Shown here piece by piece: positions 4,990 to 64,000 of a stretch of 64,000 nt of DNA; positions within the stretch are counted from its first letter, which is position 1; every line of letters begins with the position of its first letter. Source of the DNA: Staphylococcus sp. MI 10-1553 (GTDB taxonomy: Bacteria; Bacillota; Bacilli; Staphylococcales; Staphylococcaceae); contig NZ_CP048279.1 in the NCBI RefSeq assembly GCF_010365305.1, forward strand, positions 496,001-560,000, written 5' to 3'. The notes under the pieces are model-generated. The model was not told where the DNA came from. It ran no database searches and saw only the letters and a list, made by a program, of their open reading frames with translations. A program made the translations under genes and the position numbers.

Positions 4990-5041
4990 GGGAGTAGTAC
5001 AGAAATCTCATGTGCAACAAAGATTTCGTCGTACTGCCCCC
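4990..5041. repeat. Staphylococcal-type palindromic intergenic repeat
   Basis: GGGAGTAGTACAGAAATCT pairs with AGATTTCGTCGTACTGCCCC around a loop of about a dozen bases. The GGGA...ACAGAAAT...ATTTCGTCGT...CCCC plan is that of a short palindrome scattered between genes in many staphylococci. Only one copy is visible in this window, so the assignment rests on recognising the motif. Confidence 0.6.
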
Positions 5042-5338: not shown

Positions 5339-5539
5339 ATGAAAAAAATAGAGAGGGCTCAATTTCGAGTTGCTTCAAATGTTCTTTTTTTATGCGGTAC
5401 TGGCGGAGCAGGAGGATGTTGGGCAGTAGCTGTTGCATTTGGTATCACTACTGGTTGGGCAGGATTTTCATTAGCCGCAATTTGTGGTCTAATAACATCT
5501 CTTGGTTGTACAGGTGCAACTAACTCCATTTGTAAATAG
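5339..5539 (+). CDS. Small Gly/Ala/Cys-rich bacteriocin-like peptide
   Basis: A 66-residue peptide: a basic start (MKKIERAQFRV), then a Gly/Ala-rich hydrophobic core with five cysteines (positions about 19, 27, 49, 57 and 65) and the ending GCTGATNSICK. The composition resembles pore-forming bacteriocins with a cysteine-rich hydrophobic mature part, of the halocin C8-like kind; this is resemblance, not a demonstrated match. The best ribosome site (5299-5309) is 30 bases upstream. A TTG at 5307, well placed for that site, opens a different frame (MKNAIVSQHQS) that ends in TGA exactly overlapping this ATG, so either there is translational coupling or a leader has been frameshifted. A small membrane peptide follows after 14 bases and could be its immunity partner. 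Confidence 0.5.
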   Translation: MKKIERAQFRVASNVLFLCGTGGAGGCWAVAVAFGITTGWAGFSLAAICGLITSLGCTGATNSICK

Positions 5540-47916: not shown

Positions 47917-49146
47917 TCAAACCCCCTCATAACGTTTGACGGTTGACAGTAATAAGAGAAAGCCTGTTACGACTGTTGCGAAAACTAAACCTGACATCAT
48001 AAGCGGTGTGAGTACCGTACCAATGATTAAAAATAGCCGCGATATGAGCTCTGCACCAATCGGCACCCAACTGTCTAATGCAGAATGGGCACCACGTGTG
48101 TCGGCAGGGATAAACCGTATTTTTTCTGCTTCCACAGTCGGCGTGAACAAAATTTCACCAATCGTGGCCATCAACATAAAGATAACAAGGACGAGTGCGT
48201 GGTTATTACTCATGACAACCGTATAGCCTCCTGCGAAAAAGAGAAAGCCAATATTTAAAATGGTCGCAACTTTGAAACGTTTAAAGTAATGTAAAATCGC
48301 AAAGCTTAAACTAATAATCGTCAACGTATTGATTAATAACAATATCGAAAACATACGGACGCCATCAATTGGAAAGTCAAACAACTGAAACGTTTTGAAT
48401 TGATGTTCTAAACGCACTGCGACATAGGATGAGAGCGACATTTCCGCACTTAATATGAGCATACTACTGATAAGCAATAAGACGAAAGGTCGATTCCGAT
48501 ATGCCACTTGATAACGTTGAAACATCGCCACAAAGCGACGTGCTGATGGATGGCTGATTGTGCGTCGTGCTTCTTGTACACCAAAATAGAGAATCAACAC
48601 ATTCACAGTTAAACAAATAAAAATCAACACAAATAAACTCACTTTGAACGAACTGTAAAATAATCCCCCCATGAGCATCCCGAGCGCAGTAGAGGTGTTC
48701 GAAATCCAATATTTGAAGCGGGCATAGCGTTGTCGGTGTGTCTCGTCAATACTATCTAAAGCTAAAGCGTTGTACATCGGCTTGGCTAAGGCAGTAAACA
48801 GTTCATTGAGAAGATAACAGGCCAAGAAAACAACAAATAATAATTGAAATGACTGTGACCCTTCTAACTGAGCTAATACAGCCCCCATACCTAGGAAGAG
48901 CAGTGCACTCATTGTCGTTAAACAAGCGATGACCTTCTTCTTAAGCGGTAAATGGTCGCTCAAATAACCACCGATAATCGAACCGCTAAATTTTAATAAA
49001 ATCCCAACAATGAGCATAAGTCCGGCTTTTTTACCGCCTAAATAGTGCGTGAGTAATAATGCCATAAACGGAAACACGGCATTCACAGAGGCATTTTGAA
49101 TAAACAACATGAGTAAACGTAACTTCACATTTTTAGGTAATGTCAT
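47917..49146 (-). CDS. MFS exporter convergent with the ATP-grasp operon
   Basis: A 409-residue, 12-helix major facilitator of the drug-efflux type. The loop 2-3 motif appears as SGSIIGGYLSDHLPLKKKV (G-x-L-S-D-x2), and helix 5 region as YWISNTSTALGMLMGGLFY. ATG 49146 (MTLPKNVK) follows TGGAGATATGCTT. Its position next to the ATP-grasp genes suggests it exports their product, as BacE does for bacilysin, but it is on the opposite strand and may be independent. Confidence 0.75.
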   Translation of the reverse strand: MTLPKNVKLRLLMLFIQNASVNAVFPFMALLLTHYLGGKKAGLMLIVGILLKFSGSIIGGYLSDHLPLKKKVIACLTTMSALLFLGMGAVLAQLEGSQSFQLLFVVFLACYLLNELFTALAKPMYNALALDSIDETHRQRYARFKYWISNTSTALGMLMGGLFYSSFKVSLFVLIFICLTVNVLILYFGVQEARRTISHPSARRFVAMFQRYQVAYRNRPFVLLLISSMLILSAEMSLSSYVAVRLEHQFKTFQLFDFPIDGVRMFSILLLINTLTIISLSFAILHYFKRFKVATILNIGFLFFAGGYTVVMSNNHALVLVIFMLMATIGEILFTPTVEAEKIRFIPADTRGAHSALDSWVPIGAELISRLFLIIGTVLTPLMMSGLVFATVVTGFLLLLSTVKRYEGV

Positions 49147-49302
49147 AAGCATATCTCCATTGTATAAGATAAAAAATATGTAAAATTAGTATTATATTAC
49201 CCTCAAAATGAAAGCGTGTCAAAATTTGTATGAGACCGCCGTGCACGATACAATTTGTAAGAAACATTGCGCTATAATGAAGAGGAAGAATGGAGGGTGA
49301 AA

Positions 49303-50232
49303 TTGGATATTAAACAGATGAAGTATTTTATAGAGATTGTACGTCAAGGTGGGATGACGCGTGCAGCCGAGACATTATACATCGCGCAACCGACGATCAG
49401 TAAGGCGATTAAAGAGTTGGAGTCTGAGATTGGTCAGCCGCTGTTTGATCGCACACGTCGCCAATTGTTGCTGACGGACGTGGGAGAAGTGTTTTACCAT
49501 AAAGCCGTTGAAATATTAAAACTATACGAAAGTTTGCCGAATGAGATCAGTAGTCTGCTTGGTCTTGAGAAAGGTTATATTTCTATCGGTATTTCTGCGT
49601 TGATGGATATGGAACGTTTAGTTCAAGTACTCGGACAGTTTCATCAACAGTATCCGAATGTCGTTTTTAATTTGGACGAAAATGGGGGTAAAACGACTGA
49701 AAATCAAGTGCGCAACAATGAAATTCACCTCGGATTAACTTCTTTACCTGTGGATAGTAAAATGTTCGATTCATTTCCATTGTATTCAGAGGAGTTCAAA
49801 GTCGTCATGCATCATACCCATCCACTGGCCCAACAACAAACAGTGGCATTTAAAGCATTAAAAGATGAAGACTTTATTATGTTTAATGAAGACTTTTATA
49901 TTAATGACAAAATTATTGCGTTAACGCGACAAGCAGGCTTCGTACCGCATATCGTATCTAAAATTTCGCAATGGCAATTTATCGAACATTTGATTACCGC
50001 AAAAATGGGTATCAGTATTTTGCCGAATAGCAATGTACGTCTCATTAGTCGGAACCCAGAAATTCGTGTGTTGTCGATTGAAGACAGTACAGTGGATTGG
50101 ACGATGGGGGTCATTTGGCGTAAGGACGTCTATTTAAATCATGCCACACAAACATTTTTAGATTATCTGAATATCCATTTACCGTTAACGACAGTACCTG
50201 AAAGCCGTTCCATAGATAAAAGTAATAATTAA
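49303..50232 (+). CDS. cidR: LysR-type regulator CidR
   Basis: A 309-residue LysR regulator: N-terminal winged helix (DIKQMKYFIEIVRQGGMTRAAETLYIAQPTISKAI within residues 1-40) and a C-terminal effector domain. The opening closely resembles Staphylococcus CidR, the acetate-responsive activator of the cid genes, and cidA and cidB follow on the same strand. TTG 49303 follows GGAGGGTGAAA; frames extended to ATG 49267 lack a ribosome site. Confidence 0.85.
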   Translation: MDIKQMKYFIEIVRQGGMTRAAETLYIAQPTISKAIKELESEIGQPLFDRTRRQLLLTDVGEVFYHKAVEILKLYESLPNEISSLLGLEKGYISIGISALMDMERLVQVLGQFHQQYPNVVFNLDENGGKTTENQVRNNEIHLGLTSLPVDSKMFDSFPLYSEEFKVVMHHTHPLAQQQTVAFKALKDEDFIMFNEDFYINDKIIALTRQAGFVPHIVSKISQWQFIEHLITAKMGISILPNSNVRLISRNPEIRVLSIEDSTVDWTMGVIWRKDVYLNHATQTFLDYLNIHLPLTTVPESRSIDKSNN

Positions 50233-50309
50233 CATGAAAAAGCAATATTTTTATAATGGTTGATGACCCGTTACAATAGAATCATTCGAACGAAGAAAGG
50301 ATGATTGAA

Positions 50310-50702
50310 ATGGCAAAGATGAAACGGCTATTGAAAACTGTAACGCAATTATTCATCATATATGGGATTACGATGTTAGGTAATCAAATCTAGCAATTTT
50401 TCAACATCCCCCTAGCTGGTAGTATTATTGGGTTATTCTTGTTTTTCATTTTGCTTCAATTCAAAATGATTAAAGTTGAATGGATTAAAGAAGGTGCCAA
50501 TTTTCTACTCGCGACGATGGTGTTTTTCTTCGTTCCGTCCGTGATAGGATTGATGGATGTCGTCTCAGAAATTAACATTAACTTTATTATATTTTTTACA
50601 TTAGTTGCTGTAGGTACGGTACTCGTCGCATATACTTCTGGATTACTGGCTGAAAAAATGGTGACAGGTCGTATCTTTCAGAAAGGACAAAAGCAATCAT
50701 GA
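50310..50702 (+). pseudogene. cidA: cidA with in-frame amber codon
   Basis: From ATG 50310 (after AAAGGATGATTGAA) the frame encodes MAKMKRLLKTVTQLF and on to GNQI, then TAG at 50391-50393, and continues without break as QFFNIPLAGSIIGLFLFF to 50702. CidA is a small holin-like membrane protein; the residue lost corresponds to the Lys/Gln before the PLAGS helix. Only this one base change breaks the gene. Re-initiation at ATG 50468 would give only the C-terminal helices. Its stop overlaps cidB by 4 bases. Confidence 0.85.
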
Positions 50703-51382
50703 TTATCTTACAAGGTATTGCGATGATTGTTTTGACAGTCGTGATGTTTATGTTGTCCAAAAAAATATATGTTAAGTTTAAATCACCTATTCTCAACCCC
50801 GCTTTGATGACATCTATCGGCGTTATTGCGATATTATTGCTTTTTAATATCGACTATCACGGTTATATGGTGGGAGGGCAATGGATTAATCAGCTATTGA
50901 GTTCCACAGTAGTGTGTTTAGCTTTTCCACTGTACTTAAACCGGCACAAGATTGTAAAGTATTTCAAAACAATCTTCGTTAGTGTACTTACAGCTGTAAT
51001 TTTAAATTTCTCCATAATTTATTTTTCTTTAAAATTACTTGGCTATGGACGCGAAGATATTGTGACATTGTTACCCCGTTCAATTACAGCGGCGGTCGGC
51101 ATTCAAGTGTCACATCAGCTTGGTGGCGAGGATACCATTACCATCCTGTTCATTATCGCTACGGGCTTATTAGGAAGTATGATGGGTGCCACCCTCGTCC
51201 GTATGACGAACTTTCAATCTTCCATTGCACGAGGCATGACATTTGGTAATTCTTCTCATGCATTTGGAACCGCACGTGCTTTGGAAATGGATTTAGAGTC
51301 AGGCGCATTTAGTTCAATCGGTATGATATTATCAGCCGTTATGAGTTCTGTCATGCTTCCAATCTTATTGATGTTGTTCTAG
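50699..51382 (+). CDS. cidB: CidB/LrgB family membrane protein
   Basis: A 227-residue LrgB/CidB protein with about six or seven helices. [20 protein letters not shown] and [23 protein letters not shown] are the family signature segments. It works with CidA in programmed lysis and in handling of carbohydrate-overflow by-products. The stop codon TAG is completed by the first base of the IS200/IS605 element (51382), so the insertion lies exactly at the end of the gene and leaves the protein essentially whole. The cidC gene expected next is displaced or absent. Confidence 0.88.
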
Positions 51383-51539
51383 TGAACTACTCACCACTTA
51401 GCTAAAACATAAAGGTTCTTAACGCTTGAAGTGGGAGCTTCTTGGGAATAGAGCGTACTTGTAAGTGTATTTCTTTACTAACAGAGGTTTCTCTTATTGA
51501 CCAAGCTATCCCCGTAGACCCTACGGTTATCGGTCTTTT
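51382..51539 (-). ncRNA. Right-end (omega/re) RNA scaffold, copy 2
   Basis: Equivalent to 35277-35434, with the same predicted stems and a C/T-type difference (GCGTAC against GCATAC). Its guide, taken from the flank beyond the right end, would be TAGAACAACATCAATAAG, i.e. the antisense of the cidB 3' end. Confidence 0.6.
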
Positions 51540-52682
51540 CTAAGCTAATGTTTGCATTCGTAGCCCTTCGGTCAAAATATTGATGCTCGCGTTTATATCT
51601 CGGTCATGGTGAGCATGGCAAATAGGACAAGACCATTCTCGAATTTTGAGATTTTTCTTGCCATCATTATGTCCGCAGTCTGAACAGACTTGACTTGATG
51701 GAAACCATTTATCAATCTTGACTATTTCACGTCCATACCAGTCAGCTTTGTATTGTAGCTTAATCACAAAGCTAGACCATGACACATCAGAAATGCTTTT
51801 AGCCAGTTTATGATTTCGCAACATACCTTTTGTGTTTAAGTCTTCAATACAGATAATATCGTGATTTTTGATAATCTCTGTACTCAACTTGTTTAGAAAG
51901 TCAGTGCGTTGATTCATTACCTTTTCATGTAGTCGTGCAACTTTCTGTTTTTGTTTCTGGTAGTTTTTGGCTTCAAAGAGATTGATACCCTTCTTTTTGG
52001 CTAACAGGGCACGTCTCGACAACTTACGTTGTTCACGTTTTAGTTTCTGTGCCATTTTCGAAGTGAACTTATTATTATCAATCTTTTGACCGTCAGAAAA
52101 AATGGCAAAATGAGTGATTCCAAGGTCAATTCCAATTGCAGAATTAGTTTTAGGAAACTCGACAACTTCTTCTTTGCACAATAAAGAAACATAGTATTTA
52201 CCGCTTGAACGGCGTGATATTGTAGCTGATTTGATAATACCTTTAGGTTGTCTATGAAGCTTTATTTTAACTGATGACTTCAACTTAGGAACTTTGATGA
52301 ATTTATTATCAATCAAGGATATTGTGCCATTTTGATTATTAGTGGTATAGCTTTGAACGGGATTCTTCTTACTTTTGAACCGAGGAAATCCAACAGATTT
52401 ATCTCTAAAGAAATTCTTATATGCCTTGTCTAAATTGAGTTGTGCATTAGCCAAGGCAAGGCTATCTACTTCCTTCAAAAATGGAAATTCATTCTTATAT
52501 TTAGCTGGTGTCGGGAACTTCATTTTTTTAGAAGAAACATTCTTAGTTTCTTCATAAGCTTTCATTCGATCATCAAGCATTAGATTGTAGACCTTACGGA
52601 CACAACCGAAAGACTTAGCGAAGAAAATTTTTTGTTCTTCAGTTGGATAGATTCTAAATTTATATGCTTTGAGTCGTTCCAT
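51540..52682 (-). CDS. tnpB: RNA-guided endonuclease TnpB, copy 2
   Basis: 380 residues, identical to the protein at 34134-35276, with the RuvC Asp/Glu/Asp residues and the CSDC...CPIC zinc finger intact. With its own right-end RNA it would recognise the empty cidB site. Start follows GAGAGGTGCGTAGCTT. Confidence 0.93.
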
Positions 52683-52697
52683 AAGCTACGCACCTCT

Positions 52698-53102
52698 CTA
52701 TTTATGATTATAACCTTGATTCTGAATATATTTTTTTATAACGTCAATTGGTGCGCCACCAGTTGTCAAAAGGCAAAAACTTCTAGACCAAAACATTTCT
52801 TTCCAAAGAAACTGTCTTACTTTTGGAAAGTCGCGTTTTATCAAACGCGAACTGGCACTTTTATAGGCATTGATGAATTTTGTCAATTCTGTTTTTGGTT
52901 GTGCTTTGAACATAATATGAACATGGTCTTTATCCTGATTCCACTCAACTAGAGTAATATGATAAGACGCTGCAATTCGTACAAAAGTTGTTTTAGCAAA
53001 TTCAGAAATTTTATCATCAATCACATGTCTACGGTATTTAGTAACCAACACAAGATGATAATAGAGAAGAAACACCGAATGATTATTAGTATCTAATTTC
53101 AT
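52698..53102 (-). CDS. tnpA: IS200/IS605 Y1 transposase TnpA, copy 2
   Basis: 134 residues with the HVH motif (DHVHIMF) and C-terminal Tyr helix. It differs from copy 1 at three residues (H for Q near 22, E for K near 30, Q for H near 58), none in the catalytic motifs. The same GTGAGTTGATATAAC leader precedes the start. Confidence 0.93.
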   Translation of the reverse strand: MKLDTNNHSVFLLYYHLVLVTKYRRHVIDDKISEFAKTTFVRIAASYHITLVEWNQDKDHVHIMFKAQPKTELTKFINAYKSASSRLIKRDFPKVRQFLWKEMFWSRSFCLLTTGGAPIDVIKKYIQNQGYNHK

Positions 53103-53175
53103 GTTATATCAACTCACTTCTTATATAGACTGATTATAACATAGAACAAAATAAAAAGGCGATGAGCCTTGCGTG

Positions 53176-53270
53176 TCGGTTTTCGAGTTACCAACGGTAA
53201 CCCTCATACCGAACGGCATTCATCACCCACCTATAGAGGATGGGAGACTTCTGCCTGAATTAAGTTAAAA
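53176..53270 (+). repeat. Orphan right-end RNA remnant of another IS200/IS605-type element
   Basis: GGTTTTCGAGTTACC pairs with GGTAACCCTCATACC around AAC, and 15 bases later CCCACCTATAGAGGATGGG forms a second hairpin followed by AGACTTCTGCCTGAATTAAG. Hairpins of this order, ending in a GGGAGACTTCTG-like box, are typical of tnpB right ends. No tnpB is attached, and it is unlike the right end of the two full copies. The spacer 53271-53494 shows no gene. Confidence 0.5.
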
Positions 53271-53494
53271 AGTCATTAATAGATGAATATGACCGTGATA
53301 AATTTAGTATTTTTCCGTTTTCAACCATCTTCTATCTAATGGTTTACGTATTCACTGCACGCGTGTGAGAAAGGTTTATAAAAATCAAAGGAGTGGCTAT
53401 TCAAGTAAAATGATTAAGCTATAATGAAGATACAAGTGTAAATACTACTAACTACATTGAATTTGAGAAGAAATACGCAACAAAATAACCTAGC

Positions 53495-54481
53495 TTAGAA
53501 TGTATTTTTGATTTTTAAAAGTACATGATAGGCTAGCAAGCAAAGCACGGTAGAATTCTCTTTTTTCTGTGTCCGGATTCTTGACATAGATCCAACTCCC
53601 TTTTTTCTTGATCTATAAAACACATCCTCTACTTGCTCACTTAAAACTGTTTTTAACTCATGTAATTCATAGTCCCTCATTAGAGTTTGACTTTTACCAA
53701 GCCCTTTGTTTTTTATTTTGTGTGGTTTTCTAATTAAACTTTCATCAATTCCATTAGCATGTAAGTGTAACTCGATACCAATTAACCCAAAGTCTCTTTT
53801 TAAATATTCGTAAGGGTATTGCGCTAACTGTCCTACTATAAATATTCCTCTTTTATTTAACTTTTGAGCTGTTCTCTTATTTATGCCCCACATATCGGTT
53901 AAATTATCAATCTTCCATAATTTGCAAGGTACATCTTCATAACGCCATTCAGCAATGGCATTATTTGTTTTCTTCGTTTCAATATCCATAGCTACTTTTG
54001 ACAAAAACATATTCGATCCAATGCCAATTGTATTTTTAATTCCTATTGAATCGAATATTTTTTCTTGTAATAATTCAGCAAATTCTTTCGGTGTATTAGC
54101 AAATAAATGGAATGACTCTGTAATATCCATAAAAAATTCATCAATACTATATTGACGAAAATCCTCATGTGGCAAATAATTCAAAGCTATCTTAGAAATT
54201 TCATTTGATAATTTCATATATGTTCGCATTTTCGGGTTAGTAATATATATGTCAGTTCTTTGTGGAATTTCGAACAAACGAGACCCTGTTTTAATTCCCA
54301 TTTTCTTCAGTTCTGGTATAAATGCTAACACAACAGACCCTTGTCTTTTAGTATCTGCCACTACTGCCAATTTAACTTTTAAAGGATCTAAATCATTTAA
54401 AATGCACGATACACTAGCAAAGAAACTTTTTAAATCAACACATAATATATCTCTTTGTTGACATTGGAAATAGTCATACAT
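53495..54481 (-). pseudogene. Y-family DNA polymerase (UmuC-like), 3'-truncated
   Basis: The 328-residue frame has the UmuC/UvrX-type polymerase core: ILCVDLKSFFASVSC with the metal Asp, FRQYSIDEFFMDITES with the catalytic Asp-Glu pair, and the thumb GIGSNMFLSKVAMD. These enzymes copy past DNA lesions and are common on plasmids and phages. After residue about 290 (YRSRKKG) the sequence departs from the family and stops, so the little-finger domain (about 90-100 residues) is missing. The start (MYDYFQCQQ) is the family start. It is probably non-functional. Confidence 0.7.
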
Positions 54482-54571
54482 TTATTTCACCCCACTAAGA
54501 TTAAGTATCTACATTATAGAACATATGTTTGATTAGGTGAATAAAAATTAGACCCCAATTACGGGATCTAT

Positions 54572-55368
54572 TCATATAAACCTTAAAAGTTTTCCAAGAT
54601 TATTATTTAACAATTCAAACAACTTTTTATTTGAAGGTTTGTCAACAAGCTTTATTGCTTGTGCTAGCTCATCATAAGCCTCTTGAAATTTATCAATCTT
54701 ATAATATGCAAGAGCTTTAGCGTTCTTAGCATTTGCTAACATTAAATTATCGCCTTTATCTTTAGCTTCACCTTCAAGAGTAAAACTTATCTGTAATGCA
54801 TCATTAGGACGATTAGCATAGGACAACAACACACAAGATCTATTTAATAATCTAATTTTCAAAACATCAGTTTTAACATTAGAGTAAATATGGCTTATTA
54901 TTTCATTTAAACTATATCCATTAACAGATAGTACATCAATGTAACTCTTCACCAATTCAGGAGGTTTTTTATTTATTTGTTTGTATACACCAATAAAATT
55001 ATCAGTATCATAACACAAATAATAATGCATAGCTAATTGTATGTAATAATCTTCGTTGTTAAGTTCTTCACTTAAAAGTTTAATATTTTCAGATAAGCGA
55101 AGCACATCTTTTTTCAATGCATCAGAGAACTTCTCTATTTTTTTAATAGGCTCATTTAAATAGATGTAGTTTAAAACATTAAATTGATTTTTAATATAAT
55201 GATCATACAAATTGTGATAACCGTTAAGAATTAAGTCTGGGTACTTTTTAAATATGCTTCTTATAAGTTCTTCACTTAAGTTTTTATAATTATTATTTTC
55301 AAGAATCTTTATAATCCCACTCACTTCAAGCTTATATAATTCTACATTATTTAATTGATAGTTCGGCA
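54572..55368 (-). CDS. TPR-like helical protein of the RiPP locus
   Basis: A 265-residue protein built of tetratricopeptide-like helical hairpins (LLSYANRPNDALQISFTLEGEAKDK; NAKALAYYKIDKFQEAYDELAQAI), resembling the peptide-binding C-terminal half of Rgg/PlcR-type regulators but without any DNA-binding helix-turn-helix. I chose ATG 55368 (MPNYQLNN) because AAGGGTGAG precedes it; the longer frame runs through the maturase gene. It overlaps the maturase end by 22 bases, so it is translated with it. It may bind the precursor or a peptide signal, or be an immunity factor; none is proven. Confidence 0.6.
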
Positions 55369-56630
55369 TCAATCTCACCCTTAGAATCAATAATATTAAT
55401 AATTTCTTTTGTATTATACTTTGCTGTTGGACAAGGTTGTTTTTTCTTTTTAATTCGATGTAATGGACAACTATCACCGTGACAAACTGGAGAAAAGTGA
55501 CAAGAATGGCATACCGAATCATTCTTACCCCCATTTACCCAAAGATTCATTTTAGCAGAATCTAATTTTAATGACCCATCCTTTTCCAATTTACCCACTT
55601 TATTAATATCATCATACAATGCTATAGTACATTTATATAATAAACCATCAACGCCAATTACAAATGAGTTCTGACTAGCTGCAAAACAAGAGCTATTTCT
55701 AGCAAAAAGTGATTTAGAATTACATATATTAGCACCATTCTTAACTGCATTTTGAAATTCGCTATAAACAACTTCTTCAGGCAAGTCGTTCATGGAATGC
55801 TCTCCACCCCAATATCTAATGTCCTGGAAGTAAATCTCGTAGCGTTTATCATTATCAAAGTTTTCCTTTATGGTCGCAATAAAGTTTGGAACCGCTTTAT
55901 GATTATCAATTCCTAAATTCATTCTTATGGTTATTTTAAAGTTATCTCTAGAGTCCTTTGATTCTACTAAATTTTTTAAGATTTTATTGTAAGTTGGTTG
56001 TCCACCAATTAACATTCTATGTTTGTCATGCGTTTCACTATCCCCATCTAAAGTAATTTGATAATACAAAACATTATATTTCAATAGATTGTTGAAAGTT
56101 TCATAGTTCAACAAATAACCATTTGAAGTAATCTGTGAAACATATTTTACTTTATTTTCTTTACAGATTCTCATAAATTCTTCACTTAAGTTATAAATTA
56201 CATCTTTTGCAAGCAGTGGTTCTCCTCCAAACCAATTAACTAAAAGCATTTTAATTTTAGAGTCGTCTTGTAATTTTCGTTCAACATATTTTACTAGAGA
56301 TTTTTGCACATCTTCACTCATTTTGTTTTTCTCAAATTTTTCATAACAATAAGCACATCTAAAATTACAATTTTGATGAGGCATAATAATCAATTGTAAT
56401 TTTTCCTCTTTTATCTCCACAAAATATTCATTCCAATGATCGTCATCGGAATCTGAAGCTTCAAATTGATATCTTTCTAAATATTCATTAATGCCATTAA
56501 CCTTTTTTAAATCCTCGTATGATTTAATAGCTTCTAATGGAGCCTTAATAGTTTTATTTGATAAAAAACTATGAAAGAATATATGAGATTCATTTTTTTC
56601 AGAAATAGTATGAAAACAACGCTCTAACAG
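55347..56630 (-). pseudogene. Radical SAM/SPASM peptide maturase, main part (5' end separated by IS21)
   Basis: The protein carries the radical-SAM cluster motif CNFRCAYC (C-x3-C-x2-C, residues about 99-106), VNWFGGEPLL, and a SPASM region with many Cys (SSCFAASQNS; LYKCTIA; CHSCHFSPVCHGDSCP; CPTAKY) for two more Fe-S clusters. Such enzymes cross-link or otherwise modify ribosomal peptides. An IS21 element interrupts it after codon 13: the native start lies at 59161-59201. As it stands, an ATG inside the IS end (56636) is in frame and could give a protein lacking only the first residues, but without a ribosome site. The TPR gene is coupled to its end. Confidence 0.85.
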
Positions 56631-56811
56631 TACCATAAAAACGCAGTAAATGAGACCACCCAAATCGCATTTTCCAGTCGCATTAAAAACGCTAATTTGA
56701 TACCACCTGAATAAACTCCTTACTGGAGTTTATTTTTTTACGCTTATTACTACTTTTTAATGATATAAAAATACTTGTACACTTTGTACAAATTTTTTTT
56801 GGAGGGATTTT

Positions 56812-58347
56812 ATGCCTAATTATTTAGAAATTATTAGACTACATGAGTTGTCATTTAGTCAAAGGAAGATTTGTGAAAGCGTGGGTTCAGGTAGGACTTT
56901 GGTAAAACGAACAATTGATATTGCTAAGGAAAATCAATTATCGTATCAGATATTAAGAAATTGGGACATAGGAAGAATATCAGATATGTTTGATGTTAGA
57001 AAAAATCAATCAAAAATGAAATTTAAAGATAATGATTTTACGATGCCTGACTATAAAGAGCTTTCAAAATCATTATCCCAACCTGGTGTTACTATGAAAT
57101 TACTTTGGGAGGAGTATGTGCATGCTTGTCGTTTAAATAATAGGGCTTACTATCAATTAACTCAGTTCAGAAAGTACTTTAATGAATACTTATCAAAACA
57201 ATCTTTTTCAGAAATAATTCGTCATAAAGCTGGAGAAAGAGTTGAAGTTGATTGGGCTGGTTCTAAAATCCGTTGGATTGATCCTACAACAGGTGAAGTT
57301 ATTTATGGGTATTTGTTCGTTGCTGTCTTACCTTTCAGTGGATATGCATTCGCCTATGGTTGTACCGATATGAAACAAGAAAATTGGATAAATGCACATG
57401 TGGAAATGTTTAATTATTTTAGAGGTGTTCCTACTTTACTTGTATCAGATAACTTAAAAACAGGAGTGATTAAAAACTCAAAAACAGGTATCATACTTAA
57501 CCGTAGTTATGAGGATTTAGCCACTCACTTTAGAACAATCATAATGCCAACACGCGTTCGTAAACCAAAAGATAAAGCTACAGTAGAAAATACTGTTAAG
57601 CAATTAACAACTTATATCATTGCCAAGATGAGAAACTATCAATGTTTCAGTATAGAACAATATAACAATCTCCTGCTAGCAGAATTAGAGAAATTCAATA
57701 AGAAACCTTTTCAAAAGAAAAAAGGATCTAGATTTTCCTTGTTCGAAGAACATGAACGCAGTGCACTTCAGAGTTTACCAGCCTGTAAATATGAATTCTG
57801 TGAGTATAAAACAGCTAAAGTTTTTGCTAACTCACATATAACATATAAGAAGCATAACTATTCTGTTCCTCATCAATATATTGGCGATACTGTTCAACTT
57901 AAAATTTCAAAAAATACTATTAAGATATATAAAAATGAAACATTATTATGCGAACATTCAACTCTATATAAACATCCTGGTGGCTATACTTCTATTAACG
58001 ACCACTTTCCTACTAATAGTAGCACACATGGTGAGTGGAACAGTAAGAGATATTTAAAATGGGCATCTAGAATCGGACCTAATACAAGAATTGTTGTGGA
58101 GAAAATGTTCGAGGAAGGTCCTGAGCAGCGTCACTATAAAAGAGTTCATTCCTTATTAAAATTGGCAGACAAATATACAGATCGCACTCTGGATAATGCC
58201 TGCCTAATCTCCTTAGAGAAATCAATGAATCCTGGATTTAACTTAATAAAAAATATATTATCAAGTGGAGCTTTCCAATTAAATTCTAACAGCGGTAATG
58301 CTCCTGAACAATCATTTTTAAGAGGAGCTAATTACTATGATAAATAA
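56812..58347 (+). CDS. istA: IS21-family transposase IstA
   Basis: A 511-residue IstA: N-terminal helix-turn-helix (LSFSQRKICESVGSGRTLVKR), DDE catalytic core with Asp in VEVDWAGSKI, Asp in LLVSDNLKTGV and Glu in KDKATVENTVK, and the C-terminal Mu-type barrel. All catalytic residues are present. GGAGGGATTTT precedes the ATG. It overlaps istB by 11 bases. Confidence 0.95.
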   Translation: MPNYLEIIRLHELSFSQRKICESVGSGRTLVKRTIDIAKENQLSYQILRNWDIGRISDMFDVRKNQSKMKFKDNDFTMPDYKELSKSLSQPGVTMKLLWEEYVHACRLNNRAYYQLTQFRKYFNEYLSKQSFSEIIRHKAGERVEVDWAGSKIRWIDPTTGEVIYGYLFVAVLPFSGYAFAYGCTDMKQENWINAHVEMFNYFRGVPTLLVSDNLKTGVIKNSKTGIILNRSYEDLATHFRTIIMPTRVRKPKDKATVENTVKQLTTYIIAKMRNYQCFSIEQYNNLLLAELEKFNKKPFQKKKGSRFSLFEEHERSALQSLPACKYEFCEYKTAKVFANSHITYKKHNYSVPHQYIGDTVQLKISKNTIKIYKNETLLCEHSTLYKHPGGYTSINDHFPTNSSTHGEWNSKRYLKWASRIGPNTRIVVEKMFEEGPEQRHYKRVHSLLKLADKYTDRTLDNACLISLEKSMNPGFNLIKNILSSGAFQLNSNSGNAPEQSFLRGANYYDK

Positions 58348-59080
58348 TAAAGAAAGATTAAGTAACCTAACAAGATTATTAAGAGAAATGAAAATGTCTG
58401 TTATGGCAGATCATTTAAGTGATATCTATACTAATCAAAGTAATCAAAACCTATCCACTTTAGATATATTAGAAAAAATAATAATAGAAGAATCAGATAC
58501 TAGATTAAGGAATAAAAAAGAGAGATATAGAAAAGCTGCGAATTTATCTGTGATTAATGCAAGATTAGAGAATTTAATCTATTCATCCAAAAGAAAATTG
58601 AAACCTGAAACGATTGAACAGCTATCTACTAATGACTATATTCTTTACAATAATAATGTCATTATTCAGGGCGCCACCGGCACTGGCAAAAGCTATCTAG
58701 CCTGCGCATTAATCAACCACGCAATTGACAATGGACATACAGGGTTATTTTTTAGAATGACTGATTTACTAAGTAAATTACAACAAGCTGAATATAATAA
58801 TACGTTGGATAGATTATTAAAGAAACTTGGAAGAGCTGATATTTTAGTAATTGATGATTTCTTATTAACTAATACAACTGAACAAGAACAAAAGTATTTA
58901 ATGGAAGTGTTTGAAATAAGAAGCCGCGAAAAGTCATTAATACTTTGTTCGCAAATGACTTCTGTAGAATGGCATAAGAAATTAGGCGGTGGAGCCATCG
59001 CAGATGCGATTTTAGATAGAGCTGTATCAAAGTCATATAAAATATTTTTAGAGGGTGAATCATTGAGAAAAATTAAATAG
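58337..59080 (+). CDS. istB: IS21-family helper ATPase IstB
   Basis: A 247-residue AAA+ ATPase related to DnaC. Walker A GATGTGKSYLACAL is near residue 112, Walker B DILVIDDFLLT near 170, and sensor region ILCSQMTSVEWH follows. It selects target DNA for IstA. Ribosome site AAGAGGAGC lies in the end of istA. Confidence 0.95.
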   Translation: MINNKERLSNLTRLLREMKMSVMADHLSDIYTNQSNQNLSTLDILEKIIIEESDTRLRNKKERYRKAANLSVINARLENLIYSSKRKLKPETIEQLSTNDYILYNNNVIIQGATGTGKSYLACALINHAIDNGHTGLFFRMTDLLSKLQQAEYNNTLDRLLKKLGRADILVIDDFLLTNTTEQEQKYLMEVFEIRSREKSLILCSQMTSVEWHKKLGGGAIADAILDRAVSKSYKIFLEGESLRKIK

Positions 59081-59160
59081 TAGTACTGGTACCAAATGGC
59101 CGATTTATGTGGTACTGAAAAACGCGATTTACATGGTCCCGTAAATCGCGTTTTTATGGT

Positions 59161-59201
59161 TCTATTAGCGCGTCGTATGCAATAGTATATTTAGACTTCA
59201 T
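59161..59201 (-). pseudogene. 5' fragment of the radical SAM maturase
   Basis: ATG 59201 has a good ribosome site (GGGGTGATACA) and encodes MKSKYTIAYDALI before the IS21 end cuts in. Joined across the element with one 8-base repeat removed it continues as ERCFHTISEKNES in the main fragment. This gives a reconstructed protein of 438 residues with a normal radical-SAM maturase start. Confidence 0.8.
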
Positions 59202-59220
59202 TGTATCACCCCAATTGTTT

Positions 59221-59248
59221 AATAAAAAGAGGAGTGTAAATACACTCC
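59221..59248 (-). terminator. Attenuator between precursor and maturase genes
   Basis: On the reverse strand GGAGTGT-ATTT-ACACTCC is followed by TCTTTTTATT. A terminator right after a precursor gene, letting less transcript through to the enzymes, is usual in peptide natural-product loci. Confidence 0.75.
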
Positions 59249-59258
59249 CCATGATTAT

Positions 59259-59348
59259 TTAACTAATGTCAATACAACCTCCAATATTAACGCCTGTACT
59301 TTCTGCTACTAATTCTTCATTCTCTTTAATTTCAAAAACTAATGTCAT
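59259..59348 (-). CDS. Candidate RiPP precursor peptide, 29 residues
   Basis: ATG 59348 preceded by AAAGGGGAAATTATT opens a 29-residue peptide: an acidic leader-like part MTLVFEIKENEELVAEST and a core-like tail GVNIGGCIDIS with a single Cys. Strong ribosome site, own promoter, a terminator ten bases after the stop and a radical-SAM/SPASM maturase gene next on the same strand make it the likely substrate. A Cys next to a Gly pair would suit thioether (sactipeptide- or ranthipeptide-type) cross-linking to a neighbouring residue, but the modification is not determinable from sequence. The gene itself is intact. Confidence 0.7.
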   Translation of the reverse strand: MTLVFEIKENEELVAESTGVNIGGCIDIS

Positions 59349-59374
59349 AATAATTTCCCCTTTCGAATTTTTAT

Positions 59375-59431
59375 AATTCAGCTGAATTTATTGTGAGTCA
59401 TTATCATATTTATCATTAATATTCCTCACAA
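59375..59431. promoter_or_regulatory. Inverted repeats in the precursor leader
   Basis: Two symmetrical elements lie between the precursor promoter and its start: a perfect 14-base palindrome AATTCAGCTGAATT (59375-59388) and TTGTGAG (59391-59397) paired with CTCACAA (59425-59431). They could be operator sites or leader hairpins controlling the divergent precursor and exporter genes. Confidence 0.5.
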
Positions 59432-59436
59432 CATAT

Positions 59437-59464
59437 ATATTAGCGGAATTTTCAGAAATGTAAA
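59437..59464 (-). promoter_or_regulatory. Promoter of the precursor gene
   Basis: On the reverse strand TTTACA (59464-59459) and TAATAT (59442-59437) are 16 bases apart, close to the sigma-A consensus, about 90 bases upstream of the precursor start. Confidence 0.6.
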
Positions 59465-59515
59465 GGCTTTCAAAAAGATTTTTTTTAGATTAAACTGTTA
59501 TAAAGGGGAGATAAT

Positions 59516-60706
59516 ATGAATAAATCAATAATATTAATAATTTTTGAAACAATATCAATATTTTTTTCTTCAATTTTTACCTTCGCGTGTGGTTTTTATG
59601 TACTTAAAATAACTCATTCAGGCTCTACTTTTGGTACTTATTTGGCTATTCTTGCTGTAATAACAACAGTTTCATCACCTTTTTTAGGTAATTTAATTGA
59701 CAGAAATTCAAATAAATTAATTTTAATAACAGGACAACTTTTAAGTATCATTATTTTGTTTATTTTCTTTTTAATTTACAATGATGAAGTTTACACAATA
59801 TTTCTTGTAATGGTCGTCTTAGTCTTCGTGGACTCGATAGTAAAAACAACTATTTCTTCTAATTTAAAATTTATAACCGGAGATTATTTAGAAAAAGTGG
59901 TGTCAATTAGACAAACAATACAATCCTCGTCAGTTCTAATTACACCTCTATTAGGAGGTTTAATAGTCACTCTAATTGACTTGAAATATTTGGCATTAAT
60001 CAATATGTTTACAGAGTTTGTTGCCTTTCTTTTATTATTACTTTTAAAATTTAAATCAGGAAATATAACAAGTAGAAGCCAGAAATTCACACATAGTTTC
60101 TTGGATGGGATAAAGCATTTGATTTCTATAAATAACCTGAAGGTTATTTTTATCATTAACTTATTTATTAATTTCTTATGTAATTCTCTTATTGTAGGAT
60201 TACCGATTATAATAATTAATCATTTAAATATGAATGCTAAATACTTGGGATTAGCAGAAGGTACTTTAGGGGGTGCAATAGTAGCTTCATCAATATTAAT
60301 TTCAATATTAAATATCCAAAATCGATTGAAATTTTTATATTTATTTTCAATGCTACTACAAGCCGTATCTTTATTTATCGTATCCCTGACTTATTTTGAT
60401 ACTATAACTAAATTTTACCTATTTATTATTATATTAATATCAAATCTATTTTTAGGTTTCTCAGTTGCATTAAACAATATACCTTTTCAAGTTATGTTAC
60501 AAAAGATTGTTGATGAAAATTATAAATCTAGAGTTTTCTCAATAATTCAAAGTATGAGTTCATCAATAACTCCAGTATCTTATGTATTATTTGGTTTCTT
60601 AATTCCATTGAATTATTTCTTAATTTACTTCTTTTGTTCGATAGGTATGCTTATTTTATTAGTTATATTCAAGATAAAATTTAAAGACGTATATGAACAA
60701 ATTTAA
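59516..60706 (+). CDS. MFS exporter of the RiPP locus
   Basis: A 396-residue, 12-helix major facilitator related to MefA-type efflux proteins. VSSPFLGNLIDRNSNKLI is the loop 2-3 motif (G-N-x-x-D-R), and helix 5 has SSSVLITPLLGGLIV. It is very AT-rich and Ile/Leu/Phe-rich, unlike the core genes. AAAGGGGAGATAAT precedes the ATG. It is divergent from the precursor gene across a 167-base control region and is the likely exporter or self-protection pump for the modified peptide. Confidence 0.78.
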   Translation: MNKSIILIIFETISIFFSSIFTFACGFYVLKITHSGSTFGTYLAILAVITTVSSPFLGNLIDRNSNKLILITGQLLSIIILFIFFLIYNDEVYTIFLVMVVLVFVDSIVKTTISSNLKFITGDYLEKVVSIRQTIQSSSVLITPLLGGLIVTLIDLKYLALINMFTEFVAFLLLLLLKFKSGNITSRSQKFTHSFLDGIKHLISINNLKVIFIINLFINFLCNSLIVGLPIIIINHLNMNAKYLGLAEGTLGGAIVASSILISILNIQNRLKFLYLFSMLLQAVSLFIVSLTYFDTITKFYLFIIILISNLFLGFSVALNNIPFQVMLQKIVDENYKSRVFSIIQSMSSSITPVSYVLFGFLIPLNYFLIYFFCSIGMLILLVIFKIKFKDVYEQI

Positions 60707-60721
60707 TTTTTCTCATTATTA

Positions 60722-60768
60722 AAATCAAACCCATTCACTATACTACTTATGAGCGATGGGTTTGATTT
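60722..60768. terminator. Bidirectional terminator after the MFS gene
   Basis: AAATCAAACCCAT pairs perfectly with ATGGGTTTGATTT around a 21-base loop. T tracts are modest. The following 60769-60937 holds no visible gene. Confidence 0.65.
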
Positions 60769-60937
60769 CAAAAGGGCACTAAATTTATCTATATTATAAA
60801 AATTAATTATATAAATTCCCATATACAAATACAGAATTTACTCTTTGATTTTAAAATTCTTGATGACAACAATCTAAGACAAAATATTCTAATTATTTAA
60901 TTTCTTTCGTGATACTCTTTGTATTTATTGATCTTAA

Positions 60938-61282
60938 TCACCTTACAATTTCAGTTATTAATATATCATGCAATACTTTCATATCATTTGTAGACATTTC
61001 CATATGTCTTTGAAACGGGTGTGCACGGTCATTTCCTACCCATGCTATAAGCTTCCCTAACCATTTAGAATCTCTAATATTTAGAAGTTCTATACGCCCA
61101 GAAAATGTTAAAACTCTTAAATCCTCTTCTGTTTTATCTCCATATACCAGTAAATAGTCCCAAAGCAATTGCTCTACCGCTTTTCTGTATCCAAGTTTAA
61201 TTGTTCTTTTAGGAAAAATATACGTAAAGATAGTAGTGGGAATTATAATTTTGAATTTTCTGCACTGTAAGACCTTGCAACT
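60938..61282 (-). pseudogene. Fragment of an unrecognised gene, possibly DUF4145-like
   Basis: An open reverse-strand frame of about 115 codons without a good start, containing GYRKAVEQLLWDYLLVYGDK and LLNIRDSKWLGKLIAWVGNDRAHPF. The R-K-A-V-E-Q-L-L helix followed by a GN-x-x-AHP segment recalls the DUF4145 domain found in restriction and other defence-related proteins. The 5' part is missing or frameshifted. Its end overlaps the Abi fragment on the other strand, consistent with a decayed junction. Confidence 0.4.
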
Positions 61283-61435
61283 TTAGATATGAGATTACAT
61301 TATCTTTTACTACATATGTGTTTAGATATTGAACACTCACTAAAGACAGAGATTCTTAAAAAAATCACGAATAATGATACAGAAGATGGTTATCAAATCG
61401 TGCAAGACTTTATCAAAAGCCGAGAATACTCGTGA
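61271..61435 (+). pseudogene. Fragment of an Abi_2 (AbiD/AbiF) family gene
   Basis: The frame [19 protein letters not shown] continuing [16 protein letters not shown] and [12 protein letters not shown] matches the central part of Abi_2 abortive-infection proteins, which end phage infection by stopping growth. Full-length relatives have about 300 residues; here only 54 remain, bounded by a stop before and an IS-like hairpin after. It is a relic of a defence gene. Confidence 0.6.
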
Positions 61436-61448
61436 CTTTAGTCATGAG
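61429..61448 (+). repeat. Right-end hairpin of an IS200/IS605-type element (remnant)
   Basis: CTCGTGAC-TTTA-GTCATGAG followed by AGGTTCAAG is the kind of hairpin that closes many IS200/IS605 right ends. It cuts off the Abi fragment. No transposase gene adjoins it, and 61449-61695 holds no gene I can support. Confidence 0.4.
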
Positions 61449-61695
61449 AGGTTCAAGCCATGTTTTTTCACATCCACCTCTTTGCGGCACGACAAACAGT
61501 GTATGTATTGTATAGACCAATTGACCATTTTCCTGCTTTCTAATGAGGTAGATAAGAATGAGATAGCACCGTTATGCATGAGTGCCAAAACTTTTAGGAT
61601 TCGATATTTTTGTGACATCCGCACTTTATATTTTTCTGTTATTATTTTTATGATAATATGAAGTTATTCATGATTGAACGCGGGAGGTGCTAGCG

Positions 61696-61872
61696 GTGTA
61701 TATCATATTAATTATTTTGACAGTGCTGACCGTCATTGCTTGGATTACGGCCATTCGTGCTTTTCGTCAGACGGGGCAAAAGGGCAAAATTAATCCAAAT
61801 ACATGGGTCATCATTGGTGCAGTGTTGACAACATTGACGATCATGATGATGTTTATTTTCAGTCAAAATTAG
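61696..61872 (+). CDS. Small two-helix membrane protein
   Basis: A 58-residue protein (MYIILIILTVLTVIAWITAIRAF opening from GTG 61696; second helix NTWVIIGAVLTTLTIMMMFIF). GGGAGGTGCTAGC precedes the GTG; GTG 61687 is too close to the ribosome site. No family is recognised. Base composition is again that of the core chromosome. Confidence 0.65.
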   Translation: MYIILIILTVLTVIAWITAIRAFRQTGQKGKINPNTWVIIGAVLTTLTIMMMFIFSQN

Positions 61873-62091
61873 ACGTGTCATCATATGCATGTCGATGATA
61901 GAAATGAAAGACAAATGTGGGGAATTGCAAGGGCAGTTTTAAACTTTTGTCTTTTCTTGTGTTTTCTGATGAAGCAGCTGACATTCATCATTTGTTAATT
62001 TTTGTTGAGAATCTACCAGAATTCAGTGTATGAAAGTGGAGAAGTGGTATAATACTAAAAAATGAAAACAGATGAGAGAGTGAAAGACATA

Positions 62092-62970
62092 GTGAATATT
62101 TTAGTGATTACTGATGGTCATCCTTATACGCATAATTTTGTAGCCATGTTGGTTGCTGAAGGACATGACGTCTTTGTACAAACACCACCGACGATGAGAC
62201 AAACGACTGTCGCACAAACACGTGAGATAGATTTGTTTGATCTTTCAAGTACGGTAGAAGCATTAAAAGATATTGCGCTCGTTGTCGTGATTGGGACACC
62301 GCTATTTTCTAATACGAGGCTGACACAAAGCCATTCAATGCAATTGCAACGATTGATATATGATAATTTAGGTGTTGCGATGAAACAAGCAAATATTAAA
62401 CAATGTATCGTTTGGCAATCACATTTGCAGCCGATACTCGAACAAACGATGGCTGCTTTTCAAATAGAAGTGGTTCATCACCCACTTAAAACGACGAAAT
62501 GGTTTCCACAACGTCGCGTCCTTTATCAATGGAGCGAGGAGCGTCAAACTGTACGCGCGATTCAAGCATTGGATATTCCGCAAAATGTCTCGATGGAAGC
62601 GGTCACTGCAATGTATGGCAGATTTTTAAAAACATTGAATGGACGTCTCGTGAATGGGATTTATGATGGGCAACAGTTTACAATCGTGCTCATGCCTTTT
62701 AAAATTCCGCTTATTCAGATGCGTCATCATCCGAACAGCGACTTATCACAACGTGTGATTTTGAATATTACAGGAGGATGGCTTGCACAACAAAGTGGAC
62801 GTGCAGCCCGCATGGAGTTTAGACGATTAGAAGGTGATACGACAACATGTTTAATCGCATTGCATGACTTTGTACCGCGATTGCCATGGAGCGTATATCG
62901 TGTGACACAAGCACCGATGCATCGATGCGTCTCTTATCTATTTCGTCAATATTGGCATCAATTTAAATAA
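62092..62970 (+). CDS. Hypothetical protein with Rossmann-like N-terminus
   Basis: A 292-residue cytoplasmic protein. NILVITDGHPYTHNFVAMLVAEGHDVFVQ looks like a nucleotide-binding beta-alpha-beta unit, followed by VVVIGTPLFSNTRLTQ; the C-terminal half (LNITGGWLAQQSGRAARMEFRRLEG and LPWSVYRVTQAPMHRCV) recalls nothing I can name. I prefer GTG 62092, nine bases after GAGAGTG, because TATAAT at 62048-62053, a likely -10 box, would leave no leader for ATG 62062. Function unknown. Confidence 0.6.
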   Translation: MNILVITDGHPYTHNFVAMLVAEGHDVFVQTPPTMRQTTVAQTREIDLFDLSSTVEALKDIALVVVIGTPLFSNTRLTQSHSMQLQRLIYDNLGVAMKQANIKQCIVWQSHLQPILEQTMAAFQIEVVHHPLKTTKWFPQRRVLYQWSEERQTVRAIQALDIPQNVSMEAVTAMYGRFLKTLNGRLVNGIYDGQQFTIVLMPFKIPLIQMRHHPNSDLSQRVILNITGGWLAQQSGRAARMEFRRLEGDTTTCLIALHDFVPRLPWSVYRVTQAPMHRCVSYLFRQYWHQFK

Positions 62971-63197
62971 TAAAAGTGTTTGAAAATAAGGTGTGAGTAG
63001 CGACAACGACATCGGAGGAGTAGAAATGTGTGAGAAGTGAAGTCATTCTACTCCATGAGTCCGACTATCATAGAGATTTGCGCTATTATAAACAATATCG
63101 CTCAAAGAAATAACTGTAATGATATTGGGGGGACAGCGATATTTAGATCTATAAAGCATTGTCCCCTCGTCAACATCATAGTGATGCAGTTGTCAAA

Positions 63198-63647
63198 TTA
63201 GACTGTTACAGGGTGAGAAGGAAAGTTGTTTTCAAGAAATCGTTGCAAGATTCCGACTAATTCTGTCATGTTGGTCCCTTCCATTGAAAGTGAGGCATGT
63301 ACTTCTTCGTTCAAGTGACTGAGTTGTTGTTTCAATTCGCGCCCTTTATCTGTCAATGAGATATTCAAATTGCGTTCATCTTCAGGCTTTCTTACTTTTT
63401 TAATCAAGCCTTGTGTCACTAATTTTTTCGTTAGCGGTGTCAAAGTACCAGAATTAAGATAAATGCGATCGCCGAGACGTTTAATGTTGACGACTTCATC
63501 ATCGCCAATTGAAATCAGTGTAATATAGCCTGTATATGTGAGTTCGTATTCTTTTAAACAAGCACTATACTTTTTTATGACTTCTTTAGATGCAACATAA
63601 AATAAGAAACATAATTCGTCATGAAGCGCTTTTGGATGATTTGTCAT
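63198..63647 (-). CDS. MarR-family regulator (OhrR/MgrA-like)
   Basis: A 149-residue winged-helix regulator. The N-terminal LCFLFYVASKEVIKKYSACLKEYELTYTGYI places a Cys where OhrR/MgrA/SarZ proteins carry their redox-sensing Cys; the recognition region is IYLNSGTLTPLTKKLVTQGLIKKV and the wing RKPEDERNLNISLT. ATG 63647 follows GGGGGTCTTCAAC. It is divergent from a nitroreductase gene, a usual arrangement in which a thiol- or quinone-sensing MarR protein controls the reductase. Confidence 0.85.
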   Translation of the reverse strand: MTNHPKALHDELCFLFYVASKEVIKKYSACLKEYELTYTGYITLISIGDDEVVNIKRLGDRIYLNSGTLTPLTKKLVTQGLIKKVRKPEDERNLNISLTDKGRELKQQLSHLNEEVHASLSMEGTNMTELVGILQRFLENNFPSHPVTV

Positions 63648-63788
63648 GTTGAAGACCCCCAATACTTTTTAACAATAGTTACTACTATTATACATGCTTT
63701 TTTCTTGATTCAAAACTATGTATAAAATATAATTGAATCGCGCTTTATTTAATGCGATGTTTACATTATAAGAGGAAAGGTGACTTTT

Positions 63789-64000
63789 ATGGCACACAAT
63801 CAAAATTTTGAAACCATACTTACAGGCCGTCGTTCTGTAAAGTTATTTGATACAGAAGTAAAAATTCCACGTGAAGAAATGAATGAAATGATTAGAAAGG
63901 CAACATTAGCGCCTTCATCTATTAATATGCAACCATGGCGCTTTGTCGTTGTTGATACTGAAGAAGGTAAAGATACATTACGTCCACTTGTACAATTCAA
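63789..64000 (+). CDS. Nitroreductase family protein (3' part outside window)
   Basis: The first 70 residues ([21 protein letters not shown], then [22 protein letters not shown]) show the FMN-binding Arg pair and the SxxNxQPW signature of nitroreductases. GAGGAAAGGTGACTTTT precedes the ATG. The divergent MarR gene 141 bases away is its probable regulator. The gene runs off the window. Confidence 0.88.

Follow-up and report, generated by a model that had tools for sequence, protein, structure and literature searches.

Among ribosomally synthesized and post-translationally modified peptides (RiPPs), the closest described counterparts of the locus considered here are the NxxC ranthipeptides of streptococci, in which, according to portions of two published accounts, the enzyme NxxcB links Cys23 of NxxcA to the β carbon of Asn20 (PMC13361665; PMC8326336). 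A second reference system is SCIFF, whose substrate is described in part of the latter account as carrying six cysteines in 45 residues (PMC8326336). The present locus lies in a stretch of 64,000 nucleotides from Staphylococcus sp. MI 10-1553 (NZ_CP048279.1, positions 496,001 to 560,000), hereafter the window. It comprises on the minus strand, in this order, a 29-codon open reading frame (ORF), a terminator-like hairpin, a radical S-adenosylmethionine (radical-SAM)/SPASM maturase and a 265-codon gene resembling those of tetratricopeptide repeat (TPR) proteins; a gene of the major facilitator superfamily (MFS) runs divergently. On balance, this is probably a RiPP locus making a thioether-ringed ranthipeptide, in which the side chain of Asn21 would be joined to Cys25; its export would likely fall to the divergent MFS pump. 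Most likely it represents a new staphylococcal variant of the Asn-Cys ranthipeptides, with its own spacing, partner and gene order, rather than a new chemistry.

The maturase and its distribution

The initial annotation proposed a radical-SAM/SPASM RiPP locus with a divergent exporter, and protein comparisons bear this out. The maturase, of which 55347–56611 (minus strand) remains in an intact frame, matches the Radical_SAM domain at E 4.5e-15 and carries the motif CNFRCAYC. In an alignment of nine sequences, C86, C90 and C93 of the CX3CX2C motif and all seven SPASM cysteines (C313, C332, C372, C375, C381, C386 and C398) are invariant (P0001 numbering). The divergent gene (59516–60706, plus strand) matches MFS_1 at E 7.4e-30. 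P0001, the nearest database protein, is a naturally intact maturase with 97% identity, belonging to a cluster of 191 and named Staphylococcus pseudintermedius, a dog commensal and opportunist; the host is accordingly taken to belong to that species or to a close neighbour of it. The best NCBIfam model is TIGR04463, at 193.3 bits for a cut-off of 525. Over residues 3–414, the top structural fit is the SCIFF maturase of Clostridium thermocellum (CteB; 5why/5wgg), tied with ChlB. At the N-terminus, where a leader-binding (RRE-like) domain may lie, residues 6–71 of the AlphaFold2 (AF2) model form three strands and then helices, and in a search with the whole enzyme 5why_A is alignable from residue 3.

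In a tree of 34 maturases of our choosing, P0001 groups with P0002 (100/100). Midpoint rooting separates P0001, Bacillus cereus-type proteins, the enzymes of Bacillus suaedaesalsae and Longirhabdus pacifica discussed below and those of a genus labelled g41 (18 rows together) from 16 others (100/96), with no settled branching order within the 18-row group. Two of 84 Staphylococcus genomes hold a maturase at E 1e-20 or better: the strain's own and G054, where the locus is a different one. Matches on plasmids (101 records) are all below 60% identity, and the relatives found on viral contigs (39 loci) are only distant. The G054 locus (L086, 2522–8025) combines a distant radical-SAM maturase with an NVNVC-type small ORF, a YcaO enzyme, a nitroreductase and an MFS-like gene, assigned by eye, between transposase-like ORFs of identical translation (901–1722 and 8888–9709).

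The precursor and the small ORFs of related loci

The 29-codon ORF (59259–59348, minus strand) is preceded by an AAAGGGG ribosome site and encodes MTLVFEIKENEELVAESTGVNIGGCIDIS, with a predicted leader at about residues 1–18 and a core containing Asn21 and Cys25. Equivalent ORFs occur in related loci. In a scan of genome contigs for maturase relatives, of which the best 80 of 211 were retained, the two scoring highest with P0001 are those of B. suaedaesalsae (L005, 40% identity with P0001) and L. pacifica (L006, 38%). Both carry, just upstream of the maturase, small ORFs of 42–49 residues led by a ribosome site, two of them in L. pacifica. Their C-terminal ends are GAHINIACFA in the former and AKELNVVAC and AKDINIIAC in the latter. 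The cores NIAC, NIIAC and NVVAC, like NIGGC in the window, have a single cysteine and an asparagine three or four residues earlier. The order precursor, hairpin, maturase, TPR gene is common to the three loci, with z-scores for the hairpin of −5.5 (B. suaedaesalsae, where there is no clear T run), −5.1 (L. pacifica) and −3.2 (window).

A first set of 26 peptides has an N-x2/3-C motif within the last 16 residues in 24 cases, as against a mean of 11.8 in shuffled sequences and with none of 5000 shuffles as high. Because these peptides were chosen by eye, reliance is placed on an unpicked count of every ORF of 18–60 residues with a ribosome site and a late cysteine, near the maturase or in control windows 3 kb or more from it. 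The loci used were 8 kb or longer and had phmmer scores of 200 or higher, six own-genome loci and g41 loci L210–L219 being set aside. An N-x2/3-C end occurs in 34 of the 76 ORFs near the maturase and in 10 of the 102 distant ones, and such an ORF is present in 29 of 58 relatives' loci as against 10 of 212 control windows. Nine of the 29 positive loci come from closely similar Paenibacillus; with eight of them removed, the counts become 26/60 versus 9/88 for ORFs and 21/50 versus 9/184 for loci and control windows. When all 20 residues are compared in this way, asparagine shows the strongest enrichment before the cysteine (p 4e-6). The filter passes over a candidate in L013 (NTNCGGC, owing to an overlap rule) and a distant ORF in L156, and it scores a likely precursor in L157 as a control; a few near hits, for example in L047, may be due to chance. 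The link between the maturase family and N-x2/3-C small ORFs is strong, though not universal.

Two other kinds of precursor-like ORF were seen among the relatives. A cysteine-free family ending in VPGNLK, VPGSLS or VPGSLKR lies directly 3′ of related maturases (L158, 7729–7815; L161, 7101–7184; L162, 7899–7982; L141, 1354–1443; L136, 1391–1477); this branch probably does other chemistry. The L156 ORF (12371–12661, minus strand) contains six identical TVPTQNTNNNVC repeats, a multi-core version, and adjoins a TldD/PmbA pair, a flavoprotein-like gene recognized by eye and a maturase.

In genus g41, the A1 profile detects maturases at E 1e-60 in 10 of the 147 genomes. Across the ten stretches, a cysteine-containing peptide of 23–29 residues lies 3′ of the maturase in seven and 5′ in two; the L219 maturase is a fragment without a peptide. 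An N-x2/3-C motif is found in six of the nine peptides (NYNC twice, NASC and NGNC in one, NLGC, NFVC and NCNIC). The three regulators scanned are all of the Rgg type, by TIGR01716 (L148) or Rgg_C (L210, L215), and these Rgg genes point to Streptococcus as the identity of g41; none is listed beside L211, L212, L213 or L216. An ABC exporter is confirmed in L215, and similar-sized ORFs stand beside several other g41 maturases.

Remnants of the locus in other Staphylococcus genomes

Relatives of the exporter with E 1e-30 or better occur in 27 of the 84 Staphylococcus genomes, the strain's own included, with identities of 96% in G052 and G022, 67% in G058, 56% in G019 and at most 46% in the others. 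Three of these genomes, G052 (L183), G022 (L184) and G058 (L185), have a close exporter without a maturase and display precursor loss at differing stages. G052 retains the promoter, the ribosome site and the first five precursor codons, followed by other sequence; G022 retains the promoter region alone. In G058, for which the maturase search gave no hit, an in-frame relic, TLIFEINGCKEIVAESIDLNIGGKSVISI, stands beside the exporter, lacking the ATG and the core cysteine and matching the precursor at 54% over 26 residues (E 0.003 in the 84-genome search). That search returned four genomes at E 1 or better: the strain's own, G058 and two weak matches (E 0.34 and 0.88). A tblastn search of plasmids with the 29-residue precursor gave nothing.

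The 29-codon ORF therefore reads as a true precursor gene, given the shared gene order and N-x2/3-C cores of the two closest relatives and the decayed in-frame copy beside the G058 exporter; this agrees with the initial annotation, which had placed a 29-residue precursor here. Most simply, the ORF would predate this strain, and synthesis would have been lost with the pump retained. Since the surroundings of the exporter differ among G052, G022 and G058, movement of the exporter is possible too. The strain's own genome holds a relic of a second locus (L087 6401–7096; 1590400–1591095) consisting of an exporter fragment and a maturase C-terminus, the last 32 residues of which match P0002 at 28 positions. 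It is flanked by gnd-like and AraC-type genes, with zwf beyond, all recognized by eye. Another exporter copy in the same genome (778640–779773) contains stops.

The TPR-like partner

The 265-codon gene (54572–55369, minus strand) starts within the final codons of the maturase, overlapping its 3′ end by 23 nt. A coupled TPR-like gene without a DNA-binding domain had been described, and the overlap and the absence of a helix-turn-helix (HTH) agree with this; the start is most likely at 55369, not 55534. Scanned as a longer frame of 320 residues, the protein has no NCBIfam match, and its best Pfam match (E 0.11) is to another kind of domain. The Pfam scan yielded neither RNPP_C nor Rgg_C, so the combination of an HTH with one of these domains that marks an RRNPP regulator is absent. 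The TPR fold is a prediction from a structure model that is fair in residues 150–265 only and poor elsewhere. That part resembles TPR chains of many kinds, including NprR, Rgg3, PlcR and ComR, with unrelated TPR chains ranking equal, and Foldseek returned none at E 0.001. A large protein database holds two homologues, one named S. pseudintermedius; a profile of the three sequences added only the protein from the B. suaedaesalsae locus. Among the 84 Staphylococcus genomes, the gene is present in one, the strain's own.

A third component of this kind had been considered unusual. Yet both closest relatives have a comparably sized gene immediately after the maturase (265, 275 and 276 residues in the three loci), with weak sequence similarity (22–24%). 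In B. suaedaesalsae it begins 2 nt after the maturase and its best TPR model match (E 7e-6) falls just under the curated cut-off; in L. pacifica it overlaps the maturase by 8 nt and has a weak TPR_2 match (E 0.0018). Position, together with the weak alignment, suggests that the three partners are homologous. The B. suaedaesalsae locus also contains a separate HTH-RNPP_C regulator (4285–5160, minus strand) and a secreted-looking ORF of 44 residues (5331–5465, plus strand). The TPR partner in that locus is therefore a different protein from the regulator, and a role alongside synthesis or sensing is favoured. The regulator and the signal-peptide-like ORF, as an observation of their own, hint at possible quorum control of the RiPP in that species.

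Insertion, regulatory region and genomic setting

The maturase is interrupted after codon 7 by an IS21-type insertion sequence (IS; 56612–59180, plus strand), as the initial annotation had indicated in speaking of a transposon. The element encodes an istA/istB pair (56812–58347 and 58337–59080) with rve/Mu-transpos_C_2 and IstB_IS21 Pfam domains, its inverted ends match in part, and an 8-bp duplication, ATACTATT, is found at 56604–56611 and 59181–59188. Gene pair, inverted ends and short target duplication are the features by which the IS21 family is recognized. The genome contains four istA copies with 100% protein identity, and recent movement is therefore suggested. The native start of the maturase, ATG 59201, is left on the far side of the IS with codons 1–7 (MKSKYTI, 59181–59201, minus strand; intact P0001 starts MKSKYTISEK), and peptide production in this strain is probably off or impaired because of this loss. 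Downstream of the insertion the frame is unbroken, and an in-frame ATG (56634–56636, minus strand) is contributed by the IS end, so a maturase with an altered N-terminus might still be translated.

The precursor had been credited with its own promoter and attenuator. The second part has a terminator- or attenuator-like counterpart: the hairpin with T run (59250–59229, minus strand; −15.1 kcal/mol) is the sole terminator-like site in 59150–60900, where 0.4 are expected. The promoter does not stand out, since the AT-rich stretch holds 13 promoter-type matches for 14.4 expected, the TTTACA-16-TAATAT match upstream of the precursor (59464–59437, minus strand) being one of them. A spaced inverted repeat, TTGTGAG-N27-CTCACAA (59391–59431, minus strand), lies in the divergent promoter region; two arms are retained in G022 and, with different spacing, in G058, and one arm is degenerate in G052. 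A CodY-like box between the promoter hexamers (AATTTTCWGAAAATT, 59447–59461), with two mismatches to the CodY consensus, is not relied on, 1.4 such sites being expected per window. A Fur-like reading of the same region was discarded by eye.

The window belongs to a single contig of 2.9 Mb. The GC content is 0.23–0.32 across 54000–61000 and 0.32–0.43 in the remainder of 49000–64000. In a megablast of 53300–61900 against plasmid records, the sole match was of 64 bp in two records, and a plasmid copy of the locus was not seen. Among the openly licensed papers listed by literature searches, none dealt with the staphylococcal locus in title or abstract, which does not establish its absence from print. 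Elsewhere in the window, two TnpB-like genes recognized by eye, with identical translation, lie on opposite strands (34134–35276, plus; 51540–52682, minus), the second adjoining an IS200-type TnpA-like ORF (52698–53102).

Proposed pathway and alternative readings

In the pathway envisaged, the hairpin 3′ of the precursor would let the peptide outnumber the enzyme, whose N-terminal domain would grip the leader (MTLVFEIKE...), as suggested by the fit of the model, from residue 3 onward, to the structure of a thioether maturase. The enzyme would take a hydrogen from Asn21, and the sulfur of Cys25 would close a five-residue ring, as reported for NxxcB with N-x2-C. The leader would be cut off by a protease encoded outside the locus. 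The TPR protein, produced in step with the enzyme, may bind the leader or the finished peptide as an adaptor or sensor, and the divergent MFS pump would export the ringed peptide. Rather than a cofactor, the product is more likely a peptide used in competition or signalling, given that the three maturase-free genomes have kept close exporters, as would be expected of an immunity gene. A bolder proposal, which we hold to be doubtful, is that the TPR protein is an RRNPP-like peptide receptor without a DNA-binding domain, co-translated with the ranthipeptide synthase and binding the N-x3-C peptide; the product would then be both a self-sensed signal and a weapon, and staphylococci would drop synthesis while retaining the pump as immunity.

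Several other readings of the same genes have to be weighed. The locus could make a sactipeptide, with Cys25 joined to the α carbon of Asn21, Ile22 or a glycine. SPASM sactisynthases are known, asparagine is among the sactipeptide acceptors in the relevant part of one account (PMC8326336), and a subtilosin-type sbo-alb operon is reported for S. pseudintermedius in part of another (PMC12094015), so that the species has sactipeptide genes; we nevertheless regard this outcome as unlikely. Rather less credit is given to a different radical change, such as epimerization, a C–C or C–O cross-link or an N-heterocycle, with the cysteine serving as a metal or redox ligand. Relatives of the enzyme do adjoin cysteine-free peptides and, in G054, YcaO and nitroreductase genes, but the cysteine is retained in the precursors of the window and both closest relatives, while in maturase-less G058 the core cysteine is gone. 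That the 29-codon ORF is not a substrate at all but a regulatory leader peptide attenuating the maturase is suggested by its place just upstream of a terminator-like hairpin. This is very improbable, since the ORFs of the closest relatives are longer, number two in L. pacifica and keep the N-x2/3-C end, and since the small ORF lies downstream of the maturase in seven of nine g41 loci.

A number of observations weigh against an Asn-Cys ranthipeptide. Judged by their published description, the likeness to the NxxC ranthipeptides lies in a short precursor, one predicted thioether to an Asn upstream of Cys and a SPASM radical-SAM enzyme, but the window core is N-x3-C, not N-x2-C, although B. suaedaesalsae has N-x2-C. 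Under the filter, 29 of 58 relatives' loci are without an N-x2/3-C ORF; threonine (16/60 vs 4/88, p 1e-4), aspartate and cysteine (about 0.008 each) are enriched before the cysteine as well; one subgroup has the cysteine-free VPGNLK-type peptides; and three of nine g41 peptides lack the motif (NFCVNLC twice, NICNYC). Given the precursors that lack N-x2/3-C, the enrichment of other residues and the cysteine-free subgroup, no single chemistry can be ascribed to the enzyme family. Of 57 NCBIfam models, the 25 listed all score the maturase below their cut-offs. Neither an HTH regulator nor a protease gene was found between 54572 and 60706, and the TPR-like protein aligns poorly with its two counterparts (BLAST E 0.17; hhalign E 0.0035 over 52 columns, probability 9%). 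At the codon level, the statistics on the G058 relic are thin (18 changes in 23 codons, 5/4/9 by position; nine codons non-synonymous, five synonymous). Because exporters in general abound across the genus, their persistence is weak evidence for immunity.

Should the Asn-Cys ranthipeptide reading hold, Asn-Cys stapled peptides, described from streptococci in the portions of the sources available, would reach Staphylococcus. They would be tied to a broad enzyme family, and N-x2/3-C cores in half of the sampled loci provide a rule, open to testing, by which the bond could be predicted from sequence. The natural series of losses, from the IS-split copy through relics to exporter-only genomes, is suited to asking whether the pump confers immunity.

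Comparison with known systems

The initial annotation saw a core matching no family and a new family of thioether peptides, now interrupted. The core is better placed than that: GVNIGGC conforms to the N-x2/3-C pattern of small ORFs adjoining maturase relatives and resembles the NxxC ranthipeptides as parts of the reviews present them. The thioether RiPP reading is kept, and the label of a new family gives way to that of a variant for the same reason. The two outcomes that the annotation had named as refuting it did not arise: small ORFs do accompany the relatives of the maturase, in the half of the loci counted above, and conservation of the ORF is visible at the protein level in G058.

Apart from the spacing of the core, the window departs from the NxxC ranthipeptides in having no Rgg gene between 54572 and 60706 (Rgg stands beside L210, L215 and L148), in its HTH-less TPR gene 3′ of the maturase and MFS exporter, and in a precursor placed with a hairpin upstream of the maturase, as against downstream in most g41 loci. 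The SCIFF maturase offers the best structural fit and shares SPASM and thioether formation; the window precursor has one cysteine in 29 residues, and TIGR03974 scores 60 bits for a cut-off of 425. TIGR04463 (rSAM_vs_C_rich) is the best NCBIfam model for the window enzyme and the relatives scanned, but the window score is far under the 525-bit cut-off and the precursor is not cysteine-rich. With RRNPP receptors (Rgg, PlcR, NprR, Rap) the TPR protein shares a predicted fold, and such regulators stand beside relatives (RNPP_C in B. suaedaesalsae, Rgg_C in g41); the window protein has no DNA-binding domain. The simplest reading of these sequence comparisons is that the window enzyme shares its Asn-Cys chemistry with the NxxC-type enzymes.

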